This document shows positions 3,009 to 49,766 of a stretch of DNA of 64,000 bases, piece after piece. Under the pieces are notes generated by a model, which was not told the DNA's origin, ran no database searches, and worked only from the letters and a program-made list of their open reading frames with translations. Made by a program: the position numbers and the translations under genes. Position 1 is the first letter of the stretch; each line of letters opens with the position of its first letter. This DNA comes from Methylomonas sp. ZR1 (lineage in GTDB: Bacteria > Pseudomonadota > Gammaproteobacteria > Methylococcales > Methylomonadaceae), in the NCBI RefSeq assembly GCF_013141865.1, contig NZ_RCST01000001.1:1426001-1490000 (forward strand), in the 5' to 3' direction.

Positions 3009-3353
3009 CAGTTAGTATTGCTGGAACTAGCGGAACTGGAACAGGCCGTGCGGACCTATCCCTTTCCCGACGCGGAAACCCAGCCCGATACATTGCACCT
3101 GAATTTTTTGCTGTCCGCACCGGCCAACCCCGACCTGGCCGCGCTGGCTGCTATCTAGAAAGACAGCGAACGGTTTAGTCTGATCGATCAAGTTTTCTAC
3201 CTGCATGCACCGGAAGGAATCGGCCGCTCGAAACTGGCGGCCCAGGCCGAAAAGCGCCTTGGTGTGGCGATGATCGGCCGCAATTGGCGAACGGTTTGCA
3301 AGCTCGTCGAACTGGCGAGAAGCATGACACTCCCAAACGCCGCGGATCGATAA
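3009..3353 (+). pseudogene. Decayed DUF1697 gene (C-terminal fragment with internal stop)
   Basis: One frame from 3009 to 3353 translates to the C-terminal two-thirds of a DUF1697 protein. Visible family signatures are YPFPDAETQPDTLHLNFLL near the start and YLHAPEGIGRSKLAAQAEKR followed by GRNWRTV near the end. The frame is interrupted once by TAG at 3156-3158, and about 65 N-terminal codons, including the usual initiation region, are missing. There is no plausible start, so this is a remnant. The flanking bases 2754-3008 and 3354-3564 hold no recognisable gene. Confidence 0.75.
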
Positions 3354-3564
3354 GCCAAGTGCGAGACGGCATTTGGTTTACCCGCGCATTCGTCATGTGC
3401 TTGCCCAGTGCATGCGGCCGCTCGGGCTCGTTCCCATTTCTTAACGTTTGGTTGGCAAATTCGGCGAATTTGTCGAGAACTGATGCCGCCGTGATAATTT
3501 CGTGATTAGATTTACGGCTCCGCTTGGCCGATAATCAGCTTTATTTTGTCTAAAACCGCCAACC

Positions 3565-4287
3565 ATGCCGCCTACGAAACACCTGCTCCTGGTCGAAGAC
3601 GATCCCGACATTGCCGGCCTGCTGGCCGCCAATTTGCGCGAGGAAGGCTACAGCGTGGATTGGGCGGCCGACGGCGAGGCCGCGCTGGCCGCGATTGCCG
3701 GCAATCGTTACGACTTGTTGCTGCTGGACGTCATGCTGCCCGGTGTGGACGGCTTGGAAATTTGCCGGCGGGTGCGGGCCGGGCCGGTTTATACCCCCAT
3801 CATCATCGTCAGTTCCAAATCCAGCGACGTGCAACGGGTGGTGGGTTTGGAAATGGGCGCCGACGACTACATCGTCAAACCGTTTGCATTGGCCGAGGTG
3901 GTCGCTAGAGTACGGGCGCTGTTGCGGCGGGTGGCGGCGTTGAGTGAACCCATCGCCATTCAAGCAGATGCCGTTCTGGTCGCTCACGGTTTGCGGATCG
4001 ATGTGCAAAGCCGCACGGTGGTTTTGGACGGCCAAACGCTGGCGCTGACCGCCCGCGAATTCGACTTGCTGCATTTCTTCGCTCGCCATCCGGGCCGTAT
4101 GTTCACCCGGCTGGAACTGTTGAACCAGGTCTGGGGCTACAACCACGACGGCTACGAACATACCGTCAACTCCCACATCAATCGCTTACGCGCCAAAATC
4201 GAAGCCGATCCGGCCAAACCGGCGCGAATACTGACGGTGTGGGGCGTTGGTTACAAGTTTGCCGAAGCGGACACCGCCGACGCATGA
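3565..4287 (+). CDS. OmpR/PhoB-family response regulator
   Basis: A 240-residue two-domain regulator. The receiver domain (about 5-120) has the acidic pair at residues 12-13, the phospho-acceptor Asp55 within LLLLDVMLPG, and the conserved Lys of IVKPF. The C-terminal winged helix (about 140-233) carries LTAREFDLLHFF and the closing VWGVGYKF typical of OmpR-type DNA-binding domains. The downstream kinase start overlaps its stop as ATGA, so the pair is co-translated. Likely targets are the porin-like and cupredoxin genes just downstream; the signal is unknown. Confidence 0.93.
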   Translation: MPPTKHLLLVEDDPDIAGLLAANLREEGYSVDWAADGEAALAAIAGNRYDLLLLDVMLPGVDGLEICRRVRAGPVYTPIIIVSSKSSDVQRVVGLEMGADDYIVKPFALAEVVARVRALLRRVAALSEPIAIQADAVLVAHGLRIDVQSRTVVLDGQTLALTAREFDLLHFFARHPGRMFTRLELLNQVWGYNHDGYEHTVNSHINRLRAKIEADPAKPARILTVWGVGYKFAEADTADA

Positions 4288-6041
4288 CGCTGAGCTTCCA
4301 AAGCCGCATCGCTCTATTGTTCGCGGCGCTGTTCGTCGCGGTGCAGGCGCTGACGGTGGCGTGCATTTACGTGGCGGTGCGAGACAACCTGTTGCACCAA
4401 CTCGACCAGGACTTGCGCTACGCCGAGCAAGCCTTCCGGCAACTGCTGGTCGAACGCGCCGAACGAGTCGCCGGCGAGGCCGGCTTGCTGGTCGCCGATT
4501 TTGGGTTTCGCAGCACCGTCACCGGCGGCGACCCGGCCACCATCGCCTCGGCCTTGGAAAACCTGCTGCTGCGCATCCACGCCCAACGCGGCTTGTTTAT
4601 CGATCCACAATTTCAGGTGCTCGCCGATAGCGCCGGCCAGTGGCAAGGCCAGCCGTTTCCGTATGCGCAAGCCTTGGCAAACACCGACGCCACCCGCTCA
4701 CTGGTCTGGTTCGGCGTGTTGGACGGCCGCTTGCAGGAATGGGCGCTGGTGCCGGTGTCGGCGCCGCTGCCGGTGGGCTGGGTGGCAGTGGCGCAGGCTG
4801 TCGACGAGCAGCGTATCGCCCGATTTCGGCAAAACTCGCTATTGCCGCTGCACATCGGTTTGGCCGAACTCAGTGCCGACGGCGGCCGCCTGCTGGCCGC
4901 GTCGGCACCGGACGCGGCCCTGGCCTTGCTGCACAGCTCGACCAACCGGGCGCTGGCAGCCACGGTCGATACCGCGCAAGGCCGCTACCTCGGCCGCATA
5001 CTGACGTTGCCGGCGGCCGGCGGCGATCAAGGCGTCGCCGCATTGCTGCAAATCAAGTTCACCGATGCCTTCGCCGGCTACCGCCATATGCTGTTACTGG
5101 CGGCCGGGGTGTTGCTGCTCGGCCTGTTGACGACGCTGGCTGGCAGCGTGGTCATCGCCCGCAATCTGTCGCGGCCGCTACGGGCCTTGGCCGGTGCCGG
5201 CGAACGAGCGGTCAACGGCGATTTCGCTGCCTCGCCGCTGACCGGCCGCAACGACGAATTGGGCCGACTGGCCGATACCTTCGTTCGCGCCGCCCAACTG
5301 GCCGGCCAACTGGGCGAACTGCGCCAAAAAGACCAGGAACGCCGCGAACTGGTGGCTTCGATGTCGCACGATTTACGCACGCCGTTGGCTGCGTTACGCG
5401 CTTTTCTCGAAACCATGCAGCGCAAGGCCGAGACCTTGCCGGCCACCGAACAACAGCATTTTCTGGATACCGCGTTGCGCCAGACCGAAAAAGTCAGTCG
5501 GCTGGCGCAGGAACTGTTCGAACTGGCCAAGTTGGAATGCGACGACGCCAGCTTGAATCCCGAACCCTTCAATCTGGCCGAATTGCTGCAAGACGTCGCC
5601 CAAAAATACCGGCTGCAGGCCGAACAGCGCGGCGTCAGCTTGCAAGCCGAACTGCGCCCGGAATTACCACTCATCAGCGCCGATATTGGCCTGATCGAGC
5701 GCCTGCTGACCAATCTGATCGACAACGCCTTGCGCCACACCCCGCCAGGCGGCCGAGTTCGGCTGGACGCCTGGCCGGCGCGCGGCCGGATAGCGGTGGC
5801 GGTGCGCGATACCGGCATCGGCATCGCCCCGGAATATCTACCAACCTTGTGCGATTGGGACTCGCCGCTGGCCCGCCGCGCCCGCGCCGACGGCGGCGGT
5901 TTCGGCTTGATCGTGGTTGGTAAGATCGCCCAGCTGCACGGCGGCCGCTTGCAAGTGGAAAGTACCTTGGGCGTTGGCAGCGAATTTCGCTTCGATTTGC
6001 CGCTGGCAGATTCGGCGCGCGCGGCCGACGGCAACCGGTAA
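4284..6041 (+). CDS. HAMP-containing sensor histidine kinase
   Basis: A 585-residue inner-membrane kinase. An N-terminal membrane helix (about 7-32) and a second one (about 270-295) flank a periplasmic sensor region of roughly 230 residues. A HAMP linker follows, then the dimerisation domain with phospho-acceptor His362 in SMSHDLRTP, then an ATPase domain with the N box NLIDNALRHTPPGG and the G1 box DTGIGI. A Gly-rich GGGFGL segment serves as the second G box. The ATG at 4284 overlaps the regulator stop; the longer open frame upstream would lie inside the regulator. It phosphorylates the preceding regulator. The periplasmic ligand cannot be read from the sequence. Confidence 0.92.
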   Translation: MTLSFQSRIALLFAALFVAVQALTVACIYVAVRDNLLHQLDQDLRYAEQAFRQLLVERAERVAGEAGLLVADFGFRSTVTGGDPATIASALENLLLRIHAQRGLFIDPQFQVLADSAGQWQGQPFPYAQALANTDATRSLVWFGVLDGRLQEWALVPVSAPLPVGWVAVAQAVDEQRIARFRQNSLLPLHIGLAELSADGGRLLAASAPDAALALLHSSTNRALAATVDTAQGRYLGRILTLPAAGGDQGVAALLQIKFTDAFAGYRHMLLLAAGVLLLGLLTTLAGSVVIARNLSRPLRALAGAGERAVNGDFAASPLTGRNDELGRLADTFVRAAQLAGQLGELRQKDQERRELVASMSHDLRTPLAALRAFLETMQRKAETLPATEQQHFLDTALRQTEKVSRLAQELFELAKLECDDASLNPEPFNLAELLQDVAQKYRLQAEQRGVSLQAELRPELPLISADIGLIERLLTNLIDNALRHTPPGGRVRLDAWPARGRIAVAVRDTGIGIAPEYLPTLCDWDSPLARRARADGGGFGLIVVGKIAQLHGGRLQVESTLGVGSEFRFDLPLADSARAADGNR

Positions 6042-6048
6042 CCGAACC

Positions 6049-7347
6049 ATGCGCAGCAGACCGCCAGCGTCGTTCCCGTTAAGGCCGGAGTCCGCGATTT
6101 CGGTCTGCCGCAGATTTTCCGTAGCGTTGCTGATTGTTTCCAGCTTGCAGTCACCAGCCCGAGGAGCCGCCGACGGCCAATTTCCGGAAGTGACCTGGCA
6201 CGGCCTGCTGGACCTGCGCTACCAACACAGCGACGCCGCGCCGGGTGAATTGGAACACGGCCTGGGCAAGCTGCGCGCCGGCGGCGAGCGCGACCGCTGG
6301 CGGGTTAACGAAGCCGCCGCCACCTTGCAAGTCAGGCTGGACTGGGATTGGATGCTGAACGCCACCGTCAAATACGCCGACCGTCAATCGACACCGCTGG
6401 ACTTGACCGAAGCCTATCTGGCCTACCGGCCGGTCGGCGCCGCCGGCTGGCGTCTGGCCGGCCGCCTGGGCATGTTCTTTCCGCCGATTTCGTTGGAAAA
6501 CACCGGCATCGCCTGGAGCAGCCCGTACACCTTGAGCTCGTCGACGATCAACGCCTGGGTCGGCGAAGAATTGCGCGCCTTCGGCGGCGAGTTGCGGCTG
6601 GATTACCAAACCGAAGCCGGCGACAAACTCGGCGTGTTCGGCGCCGGTTTCGCCAATAACGACACCGCCGGCCTGATGCTGACCTGGCGCGGCTGGAGTT
6701 TGCACGACTTCGAATCCACGTTGACCGGCCGCCTGCGTCTGCCGGAGGGCATTCGCATTCCGGCGCTGTTTCCCAAGCAGGCCAACGCCAGCCAGACCTT
6801 CGTCGAAGTGGACGGCCGGCCCGGCTTTTACGCTGGCATTGCCGCCGAACTGTCGCAACGCTACACGCTGCGCGCGCTGTATTACGACAACAACGCCGAT
6901 CCGGCCTTTGTGTCCGCAGGCCAATACGGCTGGCACACCCGCTTTTGGAGCCTGGGCGCCAAGGCCGAATTACCGTGGGAAACCACGCTGATTTCGCAAG
7001 TGCTGACCGGCCGTACCAGCATGGGCGAGTTACTCGGCGACTTGCGCGCGGTCGATGTTGGATTTTGGTCGGCGAGCTGGCTGTTGAGCCGGCCGCTGGG
7101 CGACGGCCGTTTCAGCGTGCGCTACGAACGCTTCGACAGCGACGAACGCGATTACCTGCCGCAAGACCGCAACGGCGAACACGGCCAAGCCTGGACCGTC
7201 AATTACAATCTGACCTTTGCCCAGCACCATCAATTGAACGTCGAGTTCAGCCGCATTTTCAGCACCCGCCCGGCGCGGCAGGAACGCGGCGAAGCCGTTT
7301 ATCAGGAGGACACGCTGTGGCAAGTCGCTTACCGGCTGTTTTTTTAA
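6049..7347 (+). CDS. Outer-membrane beta-barrel (porin-like) protein
   Basis: A 432-residue protein with an Arg-rich N terminus, a hydrophobic signal segment (about residues 22-40) and Ala-x-Ala-like cleavage near position 42. The rest alternates polar and aromatic residues in strand-sized blocks and ends in WQVAYRLFF, the terminal-Phe pattern recognised by the BAM machinery. No specific family is recognised. Its ATG is seven bases past the kinase stop, so it belongs to the regulator-kinase operon, and the next gene starts inside its 3' end. It is probably a channel or surface protein working with the periplasmic cupredoxin. Confidence 0.75.
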   Translation: MRSRPPASFPLRPESAISVCRRFSVALLIVSSLQSPARGAADGQFPEVTWHGLLDLRYQHSDAAPGELEHGLGKLRAGGERDRWRVNEAAATLQVRLDWDWMLNATVKYADRQSTPLDLTEAYLAYRPVGAAGWRLAGRLGMFFPPISLENTGIAWSSPYTLSSSTINAWVGEELRAFGGELRLDYQTEAGDKLGVFGAGFANNDTAGLMLTWRGWSLHDFESTLTGRLRLPEGIRIPALFPKQANASQTFVEVDGRPGFYAGIAAELSQRYTLRALYYDNNADPAFVSAGQYGWHTRFWSLGAKAELPWETTLISQVLTGRTSMGELLGDLRAVDVGFWSASWLLSRPLGDGRFSVRYERFDSDERDYLPQDRNGEHGQAWTVNYNLTFAQHHQLNVEFSRIFSTRPARQERGEAVYQEDTLWQVAYRLFF

Positions 7348-47022: not shown

Positions 47023-47214
47023 ATGAAGATCGCTAAGATAGGAAATACCGGCATAGCTATGCTGATCATTGTCATTGCCGGTTTGCTCGGCATATTACCG
47101 ATGGGATTGGTGTTTTCCATATTGCTCTTTGCCGCATTGATGCGTGGTAGCGTGATGTTGATTGATAAAGCCATTGATAGCGGGGCACAAGCGAAGGAAA
47201 TTGATCGGCATTAA
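47023..47214 (+). CDS. Small membrane protein (63 aa)
   Basis: A 63-residue protein starting with ATG 47023 after GGGAGGCC. It has two hydrophobic segments (about 10-25 and 28-43, GLLGILPMGLVFSILLFAAL) and a charged C terminus. It is not recognised. It follows the AAA gene by 180 bp. Confidence 0.55.
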   Translation: MKIAKIGNTGIAMLIIVIAGLLGILPMGLVFSILLFAALMRGSVMLIDKAIDSGAQAKEIDRH

Positions 47215-47297
47215 TGATATTTACCAATAGCCTGAAGTTTAGGAAAACCAATCCTTAGGACTCTGGTGGCCGGCATAAAAGTTAAGTTGTATACATT

Positions 47298-47326
47298 AAG
47301 CCCAACATTCGCATTTTGTTGGGCTT
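47298..47326. repeat. Intergenic inverted repeat
   Basis: AAGCCCAAC (47298-47306) pairs with GTTGGGCTT (47318-47326) around an 11-bp loop. There is no T-tract. It is probably an intergenic repeat rather than a terminator, at the outer edge of the cassette array. Confidence 0.5.
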
Positions 47327-47342
47327 CGCTCTGCTCTCTATA

Positions 47343-47501
47343 TTATTGCAATATCACAACCGGTTGAGCACCGTCGTGTCGGGCGGCTAGCGCCCCACCA
47401 TAGTAGTACTCTTGGCAAAGGAGGGCATCGAGGACTTTGTCATCAATATCCGGCCATTGCCCAATAAGCTCGAATTCAACGGAGTCCATTTTGCGGAACA
47501 T
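47343..47501 (-). CDS. Small protein (52 aa) in a gene cassette
   Basis: A 52-residue frame that starts at ATG 47501, three bases into cassette DNA after the attC-like site. It reads FELIGQWPDIDDKVLDALLC and then ARHDGAQPVVILQ. There is no family match. The short distance between cassette boundary and start codon is typical of integron cassettes. No third attC was found with certainty downstream of it. Confidence 0.45.
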   Translation of the reverse strand: MFRKMDSVEFELIGQWPDIDDKVLDALLCQEYYYGGALAARHDGAQPVVILQ

Positions 47502-47554
47502 AATGTTCGAATTAACGGGCGCCGCCAGGCGTCCCGTTGAATGAGGGGTTAGGT
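47502..47554 (-). repeat. attC-like recombination site (second)
   Basis: On the minus strand the site opens with ACCTAAC, matching RYYYAAC, followed by the hairpin AACGGGACGCC-TGGC-GGCGCCCGTT, in which one A is extrahelical (47514-47538). The far end is degenerate (GAACATTATG instead of GTTRRRY). The stop codon of the nuclease gene lies inside the ACCTAAC box, as often happens in cassettes. Confidence 0.75.
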
Positions 47555-48346
47555 TTCAATTTTTGATACTGAGCCATCGTCATTCAGGTAGCAAGCTTGA
47601 TTTGCTAAAACGTCTTCCATGATGGCCCGCGCTGTATCGTTCAGAACGACCTCATCAGTAGTTTGGAAGCGATGCATTGTTAGGCGGTATTGAACTTCAG
47701 CGATACGAAGCAAGCCTAGCTCCGTTTTGTCGTATATATCGACTGGCTCCACAGTGCCTATACCTTCTTCTGTCATTGTTTCGTTAACGAACTGAACGAG
47801 ACCAATTTTCTCTTCTCCATTCGCATCGAACAGCACGGTGTTTCGGTTCCACTGAGAAGCCATTGAAAAAGAAGTCAGCCCTCTTTCTTTGAGGAGCTCT
47901 TTGGCTTGTTCTTCGTCGTATTTGATTTGCAAGATATCCGTGTTCGGGGCAGTGAAATTTGAGGTGATGCTCACAGATTTGAGCAGGTGATTGACAGTGA
48001 CTAGGCGAACGCCATTCGCTTTGGCTATGAGTACGGCGCCTTGTTGATACCCTACGGTAGTAGCAAATACTCCAGTGACGTTTCCAATGTCTTGGATGGT
48101 TCCGACAAAAGAAGCTACATCAGATTTTTTTACTCGACTGTTGTAGTGCTTGCATTCGATACAGGTCTTGTAGGTGACGCCAGCAACTTTGAATTCCCAA
48201 TAGACATCAATTTGATACGTGGCCCCGGAACGGCCATTTATCTTCACGTTGTGAAGAACGTTTACGTTGTCAAATTGATCATTTCGGACGAGTGCCGCGT
48301 GAAGATCGCGTACAAGCACTTCATATTCAGTTGATATGCGTGTCAT
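47549..48346 (-). CDS. Mrr-like restriction endonuclease (PD-(D/E)XK) in a gene cassette
   Basis: A 265-residue protein. The nuclease core reads YQIDVYWEF followed by TCIECKHYNSRV: Asp, then Glu-x-Lys with the intervening strand, the PD-(D/E)XK pattern of the restriction_endonuclease/Mrr-cat family. A GVFATTVGYQQGAVLIA helix follows. The C-terminal half (about 140-265) is unassigned. The start at 48346 is used because the longer frame would run through the attC site. No methyltransferase is next to it. Cassettes like this often carry phage-defence functions. Confidence 0.75.
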   Translation of the reverse strand: MTRISTEYEVLVRDLHAALVRNDQFDNVNVLHNVKINGRSGATYQIDVYWEFKVAGVTYKTCIECKHYNSRVKKSDVASFVGTIQDIGNVTGVFATTVGYQQGAVLIAKANGVRLVTVNHLLKSVSITSNFTAPNTDILQIKYDEEQAKELLKERGLTSFSMASQWNRNTVLFDANGEEKIGLVQFVNETMTEEGIGTVEPVDIYDKTELGLLRIAEVQYRLTMHRFQTTDEVVLNDTARAIMEDVLANQACYLNDDGSVSKIET

Positions 48347-48361
48347 ATACGAGGGGTTGGA

Positions 48362-48430
48362 ACTTAACGTGGAGCTAAGGGGCGGCTGCCGGCTTGCCGG
48401 CAGGCGTCCCACTTGAGCGCAGGGTTAGAG
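48362..48430 (-). repeat. attC-like recombination site (first)
   Basis: On the minus strand the site starts with CTCTAAC, contains a long hairpin (GACGCCTGCCGGC-AA-GCCGGCAGCC) with mismatches, and ends with GTTAAGT, fitting GTTRRRY. The CTCTAAC box is the exact complement of GTTAGAG at the start of this same cassette (48904-48910 on the minus strand). This is the self-complementarity expected from integron chemistry. Confidence 0.78.
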
Positions 48431-48896
48431 CGCGCTTTGGGATGCGATCAGCCGGCGCTACCTTGGCGTTAAGTTTTGAAAGAGCTGAGACGGACACAGA
48501 GTGCAAATTTGTTTTCGTTGGCTTTCGGTTCTTCACGGCCTCCCAAGCGAGCGCGCCAGGGCCGTTGAATACCTCTGAAAATGTGCCATCGCTGTGAATT
48601 TGTATTCCGATGTAGTAGAGCGGGATGTGGTCAACCGGAAAGGTCAGATTCTTTTGCATTGTTGCTTTTATCTGAACAAGTCGGCCGTCACTGGCAGTTG
48701 CATCGTGGTGCTTTTGGATATCCTCAAATAGCTTGATGTCGTAAGCTTCTTCCGCCAATACCTCGCCGATGTCGCCGACCAATCGGCCATCGAGAGTGAA
48801 TTGTTTTTTCTGTGTCTTGTACGACTGGCGCAATAGCTCAACAATCGCAAGCAATTGCCTAACTGCATCGGGAATGGTGATTGGCTTCTGAGGCAT
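48375..48896 (-). CDS. DUF6998-like protein in a gene cassette
   Basis: A 173-residue protein. The core is LVGDIGEVLAEEAYDI, then HHDATASDGRLVQIKATMQK and FNGPGALAWEA, as in the DUF6998 family. The LVGDIGE/DGRLVQIKAT pattern is reminiscent of PD-(D/E)XK nucleases (E, D, QxK). The C terminus RSSGTPAGKPAAAP is encoded by the attC site itself, a well-known sign of cassette genes. The start at 48896 (MPQKPITIPD) lies right behind the cassette boundary GTTAGAG. Confidence 0.65.
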   Translation of the reverse strand: MPQKPITIPDAVRQLLAIVELLRQSYKTQKKQFTLDGRLVGDIGEVLAEEAYDIKLFEDIQKHHDATASDGRLVQIKATMQKNLTFPVDHIPLYYIGIQIHSDGTFSEVFNGPGALAWEAVKNRKPTKTNLHSVSVSALSKLNAKVAPADRIPKRALTLRSSGTPAGKPAAAP

Positions 48897-48927
48897 AAGC
48901 ACTCTAACTACAATTAGACATCCTAAA

Positions 48928-48947
48928 TGACGCAAAACATTGCGTCA
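48928..48947. promoter_or_regulatory. Perfect inverted repeat at cassette-array entry
   Basis: TGACGCAA-AACA-TTGCGTCA is a perfect 8-bp inverted repeat upstream of the first cassette. On the minus strand a TTGACG...17 bp...TAGGAT pair overlaps it, a possible promoter for the cassettes. It may be an operator; it has no T-tract. Confidence 0.45.
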
Positions 48948-49057
48948 AAACGATGTCAAAAAGTTTTAAAAAATAAAAATATCTTTTCATTTCAACTGTG
49001 TGTCTGCATTTAGCACTGCCTAAATCAAATTGGTTAACCATCAACAGATTACCCAGA

Positions 49058-49339
49058 CTACTTCTGCAACCGACCCCGCCTCGCATCCATCGGATTCTGC
49101 TTTAAAGATCGATAAATCTCGACACGATCTTCGGCGCTGAGATTCTTGTCCAAATTACAAATTTGCCCAAAAATTCCGACCTTCTGCTGACCTAAATCGA
49201 TTTCCGGAAACTCCCGCAAGATGCCGGAAGCTTCTATGGCTAGTTCGACGGTGGAATTTGCCGCCAGGCTGACAGGAATAAGTAGTTGCCGATCCGGCGT
49301 GGCGTAAGCCACTTCCACCGCTATCAAATCATCCGCCAT
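49058..49339 (-). CDS. rnfH: RnfH family (ubiquitin-like fold) protein
   Basis: A 93-residue protein with the RnfH pattern: VEVAYATPDRQLLIPVSLA, IEASGILREFPEIDL, KVGIFGQ and EDRVEIYRSL. The start at 49339 overlaps the end of ratA by eleven bases, and the fixed ratA-rnfH order is conserved in gammaproteobacteria (E. coli yfjG-yfjF). Function is unclear; the name comes from linkage with rnf genes. Confidence 0.88.
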   Translation of the reverse strand: MADDLIAVEVAYATPDRQLLIPVSLAANSTVELAIEASGILREFPEIDLGQQKVGIFGQICNLDKNLSAEDRVEIYRSLKQNPMDARRGRLQK

Positions 49340-49766
49340 ACAAGGCTTTGGCACGTTGGGTGAAGGAGGTGACCATGGTGTTGCAGATTTGGTTGAACAC
49401 CGGACCGAAGGCCAAATTGGCCAGCATGCCGGAGATTTCAAATTCCAGGTCCAGCGAGATTTTGCTGGCGTCCTCGCGCAGCGGCATGAAACTCCAAAAG
49501 CCCTCTAGCGAGGAAAACGGCCCGTCCAGCAAACTGATCTGGATTCGTCCGCCTTGATCGATCTTGTTACGTGTAGTGAAGGATTTATGAAAGCCTGCCT
49601 TGGCGATGTCGATTTGGCCTTCGACGATATTGCCTTCACGTTTCAGTATTTTGCTGCCCGAACACCAAGGTAAGAATTTGGGATACGACTCGATATCATC
49701 CACCAGGTCAAACATTTGTTTGGCGGAGAATTTGACCAAGGCGCTTTTTTGTACAACCGTGATCAT
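49329..49766 (-). CDS. ratA: RatA/Coq10-type START-domain protein
   Basis: A 145-residue single START-like domain. Landmarks are MFDLVDDIESYPKFLPWC and the final helix FGPVFNQICNTMVTSFTQRA. In E. coli the protein was described as a ribosome-association toxin; eukaryotic relatives (Coq10) bind ubiquinone. The stop of the sodium symporter directly abuts its start. The divergent smpB gene beyond the symporter reproduces a conserved neighbourhood. Confidence 0.9.
   Translation of the reverse strand: MITVVQKSALVKFSAKQMFDLVDDIESYPKFLPWCSGSKILKREGNIVEGQIDIAKAGFHKSFTTRNKIDQGGRIQISLLDGPFSSLEGFWSFMPLREDASKISLDLEFEISGMLANLAFGPVFNQICNTMVTSFTQRAKALYGG

Follow-up and report, generated by a model that had tools for sequence, protein, structure and literature searches.

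A conserved attI site heads an integrase-less cassette array 3' of rnfH in Methylomonas sp. ZR1

Cassette genes and attC sites

The window, a 64,000-base stretch of the Methylomonas sp. ZR1 genome (5.18 Mb, 2 contigs), corresponds to C1:1426001-1490000. It contains the gene pair ratA (49329..49766; PF03364, 106.9 bits) and rnfH (49058..49342; PF03658, 109.3 bits), both on the reverse strand, as are all oriented features of the array described below. An earlier note on this DNA had described a gene-cassette array as interrupting this pair. The pair is intact, and the array sits 3' of rnfH, which serves as its chromosomal anchor 5' of attI. Cassette 1 carries gene A (48375..48896), encoding a 173-residue, PD-(D/E)XK-like protein of family DUF6998 (PF22522, 162.4 bits; PADLOC mREase_II, 4.3e-5). 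Cassette 2 carries gene B (47549..48346), encoding a 265-residue protein with an Mrr_cat nuclease domain (PF04471, 41.3 bits; cut-off 21). These matches agree with the families first proposed for the two cassettes, DUF6998 and a PD-(D/E)XK-type nuclease, respectively. Gene B contains the domain that characterizes Mrr-type proteins and we classify it, by sequence, as an Mrr-like nuclease; gene A is probably also a nuclease. Sequence searches of the PDB matched nothing for gene A; for gene B, they returned only aldolases, which are irrelevant and weakly matched (E ≥0.23). A strict search of genome contigs with peptide patterns confirmed no relatives of gene A, and DUF6998 was absent from the open literature searched. 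A further 52-residue ORF, of no known family, starts inside the second attC site (47343..47501).

To locate attC sites, we used a covariance model built from 22 short attC sites that lie beside intI genes in other genomes of the order; none came from the present genome or from any rnfH locus. In this training set, the model stem had 84 cells changed on both sides versus 30.9 expected. In the 64,000-base window, the model matched attC1 at 48362..48430 (51.1 bits, E 1.3e-10) and attC2 at 47498..47554 (35.8 bits, E 9.7e-7), and no third site up to E 1. The earlier note had placed both sites there and had named their absence from such a model search as evidence against its reading. As a control, the same covariance models were run on 80 named ratA-neighbourhood loci (813 kb), yielding one attC and two attI; all of these proved to be the rnfH platforms of two genomes already in our comparison set. 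Rfam had no match in the array region.

Cassette 1 starts with GTTAGAG (48902-48908), which is exactly complementary to its CTCTAAC box (48424-48430), as had been claimed, and the start of cassette 2, GTTAAGT, is complementary to its own ACCTAAC box at 6 of 7 positions. Genes A and B were likewise correctly said to end within their attC sites, with stops at 48375 in attC1 and 47549 in attC2, respectively. By stopping inside attC1, gene A acquires the translated tail RSSGTPAGKPAAAP. By contrast, the GTTRRRY end attributed to one attC does not exist in attC2, whose last box is ATTATGT; a near-identical copy of attC2 in another species (G155) ends in GTTATGT and scores 44.7 bits. With its GTT gone, cassette 2 may now be fixed in place. 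The description of three genes separated by such sites also holds only in part: the two attC are real, but no separate attC follows the third ORF.

A cluster of attC sites lacking an integron integrase is termed a CALIN, with a default threshold of two attC, according to passages of PMC12444791. The array, with two attC and no nearby intI, falls in this class. Across the whole genome, scoring the best 150 of 2302 first-look candidates yielded at least six attC at E ≤0.1, arranged as three pairs: C1:1473498-1474430, which is the present array, C1:3818247-3818742 and C1:4168000-4168716. The latter two pairs (loci L140, L142, L144 and L145) have no attI match.

The attI site and the missing integrase

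The array is headed by an attI with its leader (48902..48972), the core of which ends in GTTAGAG (48908-48902) with the crossover at G|TTAGAG. An attI model trained without this copy (model R2) scored it at 72.3 bits. In DNA searches with the array, many members of the genus matched the stretch just 5' of the first cassette. The aligned copies agree up to GTT and diverge thereafter, and several adjoin the start of intI. Over 52 copies, the mean information per column was 1.25 bits up to GTT versus 0.09 bits at positions +5 to +40; GTT was found at the junction in 48 copies and full GTTRRRY in 25. This profile includes orthologous copies, so that not all are independent, and it omits L080, which carries the same array as the window. 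An attI homologue lies 123 bp from an intI match at five loci of other genera (L014, L019, L023, L025 and L028), and the window attI is homologous over ~140 bp to attI adjoining intact intI in other genera.

The array thus has an attI with a G|TTRRRY insertion point, followed by attC cassettes in a single orientation; of the features of a complete integron, it lacks intI next to attI. Because it is anchored on a conserved attI, we regard the array as an integron platform without an integrase gene and not only a loose attC cluster. The earlier reading of an integrase-less array, or CALIN, was correct as to the integrase and overlooked the attI. No further attI was found in the genome in searches with the attI core and model.

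Two elements were identified within attI. One is a dyad, TGACGCAA-TGTT-TTGCGTCA (48928..48947), in which 94.7% of cells are paired over 19 copies; pairing was 83.3% of cells versus 29-39% when the dyad was slid. Covariation did not exceed that of shuffles, 38 of 500 of which reached it, and the percentage paired was reached by 92 of 500. As the shuffle tests were negative, we discarded a hairpin or cruciform role and claim only sequence symmetry. In an attI from another family (G003, L139 1125-1193), the dyad reads GGCGCAA...TTGCGCC, with a matched change in both arms, hinting that the symmetry itself may matter. The other element is a promoter-like sequence, TTGACG-17-TAGGAT (48920..48948), a candidate cassette promoter. 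A promoter scan at attI found two sites, no more than in shuffles (2.1 expected by chance). The TTAGGAT portion is conserved in 87-100% of the 52 attI copies.

The earlier note had seen no integron integrase and suggested looking for intI elsewhere in the genome. The absence extends to the whole genome: no protein exceeded the TIGR02249 cut-off of 265, and the two best matches, at 82.8 and 74.5 bits, look like XerC/XerD. Nor was intI found in the 1.5 kb before the window attI. Within the order, 84 of 151 genomes have an intI over this cut-off. Where an attI copy does have intI, the start codon of that gene precedes the attI model by ~57 bp, and the window can be aligned with such copies up to TGATGG...AAT at 49029..49043. 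This may be an eroded relic of the first codons of a lost intI, although a resemblance of ~15 bp is weak and could be due to chance.

The rnfH locus in relatives

To place the array in context, we compared 34 ratA-rnfH loci, 33 from the genus and one from another genus of the family. Four of these (L097, L113, L114 and L115) end, or nearly end, soon after rnfH, so the absence of attI there is weakly tested. An attI was found 3' of rnfH at seven loci: those of the present genome, G155, G086, G076, G160, G164 and G063. None of the seven has intI beside it. Five have attC after the attI; none was matched in G160 or G063. The seven loci carry six different first cassettes: gene A is shared by the present genome and G155, and the other five differ from gene A and from each other. 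The first-cassette products include an amidase (G160) and an acyltransferase (G063), while a GNAT acetyltransferase is encoded by the second gene at the G164 platform. The first genes of G086, G076 and G164 matched no Pfam family at E 0.01. The suggestion of a small mobile defence array is therefore not supported as a general statement, as the nuclease pair is particular to the window's array. At three loci (L091, L107 and L116), the site is empty, rnfH being followed directly by the next conserved gene pair.

The variable segment spans about 47253..48908, other DNA being present instead in G167 and G164. In G167, which belongs to the same species, 47253-48924 is replaced by ~700 bp with another gene, and the replacement cuts attI within its dyad. 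Fixation of the arrangement among relatives, which the earlier note had named as evidence against its reading, was thus not observed: the array is missing in G167 and other cassettes occupy the site in other relatives. G155, which is another species, also has the array, and the two copies differ at 13 positions over 47146-48942 (99.3% identity), versus 93.7% and 88.4% identity in the flanks. At E 1e-10, gene A occurs in 2 of 201 genomes of the order, the present one and G155. From this distribution and the lower identity of the flanks, we infer that the array has moved between species. High identity continues past both ends of the array, by 107 bp at the distal edge and by 34 bp at the attI junction, a pattern that favours homologous exchange of the flanks over insertion by an integrase. 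Accordingly, the sharing with G155 is not evidence for an integrase acting in trans.

In a tree of the neighbouring transporter gene and ratA, several inner nodes of which are weak (0.60-0.80), all carriers of the rnfH attI except G063 fall in one clade (support 0.992). The same clade holds G040 and G167, which have half an attI, and G163, G036 and G134, which have none; secondary loss must be assumed for these three. The carriers and the half sites in one clade argue that the platform predates the cassette changes. Moreover, the stretch from rnfH to attI is collinear in the present genome, G155, G076, G086 and G160 (85-90% identity), so the form lacking intI is older than the differing cassettes. 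This shared, older stretch is the main argument that cassettes changed without intI in cis. Elsewhere in these genomes, intI is intact in G155, G086 and G063 and present as a fragment in G076. None exceeded the cut-off in the present genome, G160 or G164, and none was found in G167 at E 1e-24.

Other observations concern the same region. The stretch 3' of rnfH varies in gene content also where attI is absent or incomplete (G134, G036, G040 and G163), and this region is a general hot spot in Methylomonas. In G122, rnfH is immediately followed by an opposite-strand stretch (L088 1762-2094) with 31% identity to IntI, and attC is matched at 2771-2857; the stretch may be left over from a different integron at this address. 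A palindrome (47298..47326), AAGCCCAACA...TGTTGGGCTT, also written GCCCAACA...TGTTGGGC, lies close to the distal edge of the variable segment. It was rejected as a dispersed repeat of the present genome, where it is single-copy. It has the shape of bare R''/R' attC boxes, and stretches resembling it occur at several places in relatives G040, G162, G076, G161 and G134.

Origin of the array and dispersal of attI without intI

We consider it probable that the rnfH platform kept its attI and candidate cassette promoter without an integrase gene, and that circular cassettes were joined at G|TTRRRY, giving an arrangement, attI-A-attC1-B-attC2, that is canonical in order and orientation. In this model, intI would once have stood at the rnfH platform and later been deleted. 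Cassettes would have been gained and lost by means of an integrase acting in trans, encoded by a second integron, as in G155, G086 and G063, or arriving with foreign DNA. The candidate promoter in attI would drive genes A and B, whose proteins would cut foreign DNA.

Two other accounts of the array's origin were weighed against this model. That it is an ordinary CALIN, arising from off-target cassette insertion at an attG, with the conserved leader merely a hot target, would accord with the two other attC pairs of this genome, for which no attI was matched, and with passages of PMC12444791 and PMC12901181, which describe insertion at attG and report CALINs to be common. The target is, however, related to attI: it is homologous over ~140 bp to intI-linked attI of other genera, with the junction at the same base. 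Given this homology, we consider attG insertion very improbable. Alternatively, intI and the cassettes decayed together long ago, no integrase has acted since, and the species differences reflect deletions and homologous exchange. The lost GTT of attC2, the exchange tract with G155 that exceeds the array on both sides, and the partial or complete loss of the site in G167, G036, G134 and G163 would all fit such decay. But in each of the other five first cassettes the junction with attI falls exactly at GTT, despite an intI-less stretch common to the present genome, G155, G076, G086 and G160, and random deletion would not be expected to preserve that junction. We therefore judge long-standing decay unlikely.

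A further question is whether genes A and B form a defence pair, two nucleases directed against phage or plasmid DNA, with the platform serving as an outlet for defence genes. A defence role is plausible from the Mrr_cat domain of gene B and the DUF6998 assignment and mREase_II similarity of gene A. Moreover, D...ECK is kept in gene B and D...QIK in gene A, which we take to be nuclease motifs. Against such a pair, the PADLOC similarities of the cassette genes are weak (4.3e-5 and 1.5e-4), the array has no methyltransferase, and most cassettes that relatives carry at this attI do not resemble defence genes. On balance, we consider it rather unlikely that genes A and B are a defence pair with the platform as its outlet.

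The model of a platform kept without its integrase can be compared with known systems. The window array resembles a CALIN in having two attC and no intI, but differs in being headed by a conserved attI, copies of which are present at further loci and in further genomes. CALINs outnumber complete integrons, according to passages of PMC9668308, and both that paper and PMC12444791 state that CALIN cassettes can be mobilized in trans. attI, being less conserved than attC, is usually left out of searches, as stated in PMC3607928. The chromosomal integron at ilvD in Xanthomonas, as described in passages of PMC12444791, likewise has a fixed chromosomal address and an intI that is lost or broken in many lineages. 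There, strains with the same intI lesion usually have the same cassettes; here, by contrast, the cassettes at a single intI-less junction differ between species, and several genomes have multiple attI copies. In mobile integrons, cassettes whose ends are pieces of attI or a whole attI1 have been shown to excise and insert, according to passages of PMC12901181. Such Delta-attI-type cassettes share with the present copies, for example those at L209, an attI that lies away from its intI and inside arrays. The present copies differ in being chromosomal, in having a leader of at least ~140 bp and not only a short 3' piece, and in lacking resistance genes. For Methylococcus, which belongs to this order, passages of PMC8527097 describe a stand-alone integrase as well as complete integrons and separate attC sites; these passages contain no attI analysis.

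Here, a profile of attI specific to a clade shows an apparent CALIN to be a platform that has an insertion point of its own, which bears on how CALINs originate and on whether they stay active. It also makes testable the idea that an integrase elsewhere in the cell loads cassettes at an orphan attI which, if true, would alter the annotation of intI-less arrays and integron counts.

At E 0.01, the attI model had matches in 60 of the 151 genomes searched from the order and in 19 of 37 from the genus. From these and from the DNA search with the array, we chose 53 copies, being the stronger or better-placed matches and not all of them; several are mutually orthologous. The attI table of 86 rows lost 33 (opposite-strand dyad echoes, partial matches at L194 and L099, and a weak third match at L209), and the attC table of 112 rows lost 6 (echoes and matches of ≤23.8 bits). 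An intI piece or gene lies within 1.5 kb on the expected strand of 13 of the 53 copies, and 40 have none; for one copy, L227, only 291 bp were available before attI. attC follow the attI in 10 of the 13 copies with intI and 25 of the 40 without. In total, 35 of the 53 have attC within 3 kb downstream on the same strand, versus none on the opposite strand. Within ~1.5 kb before attI, attC occur in 2 of 53 copies (3 of 53 counting the dropped L204 match of 21.6 bits).

Genomes can hold multiple attI platforms without an intact integrase. G131 has seven attI copies of at least 57 bits and, as intI, only a 123-residue fragment (150 bits); of the eight copies retrieved from it, five have 220-235 bp in common, with no intI. 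At L209 of G136, the order is attI, gene, attC, gene, attI in one direction. Together, these copies and this order suggest that the intI-less module itself has multiplied. We tentatively propose, at somewhat less than even confidence, that such modules (a ~140-230-bp leader plus attI) are satellite integrons, multiplied and dispersed in Methylococcales as landing pads that each collect their own cassettes and are serviced in trans by a resident or passing integrase, the rnfH platform being one of them. The literature searched, in which subscription journals are thinly covered, yielded no report of attI sites dispersed without intI in methanotrophs. The L209 group (3169-6595) lies 3' of an sdhB-like gene and comprises two strong and one weak attI within 3.5 kb.
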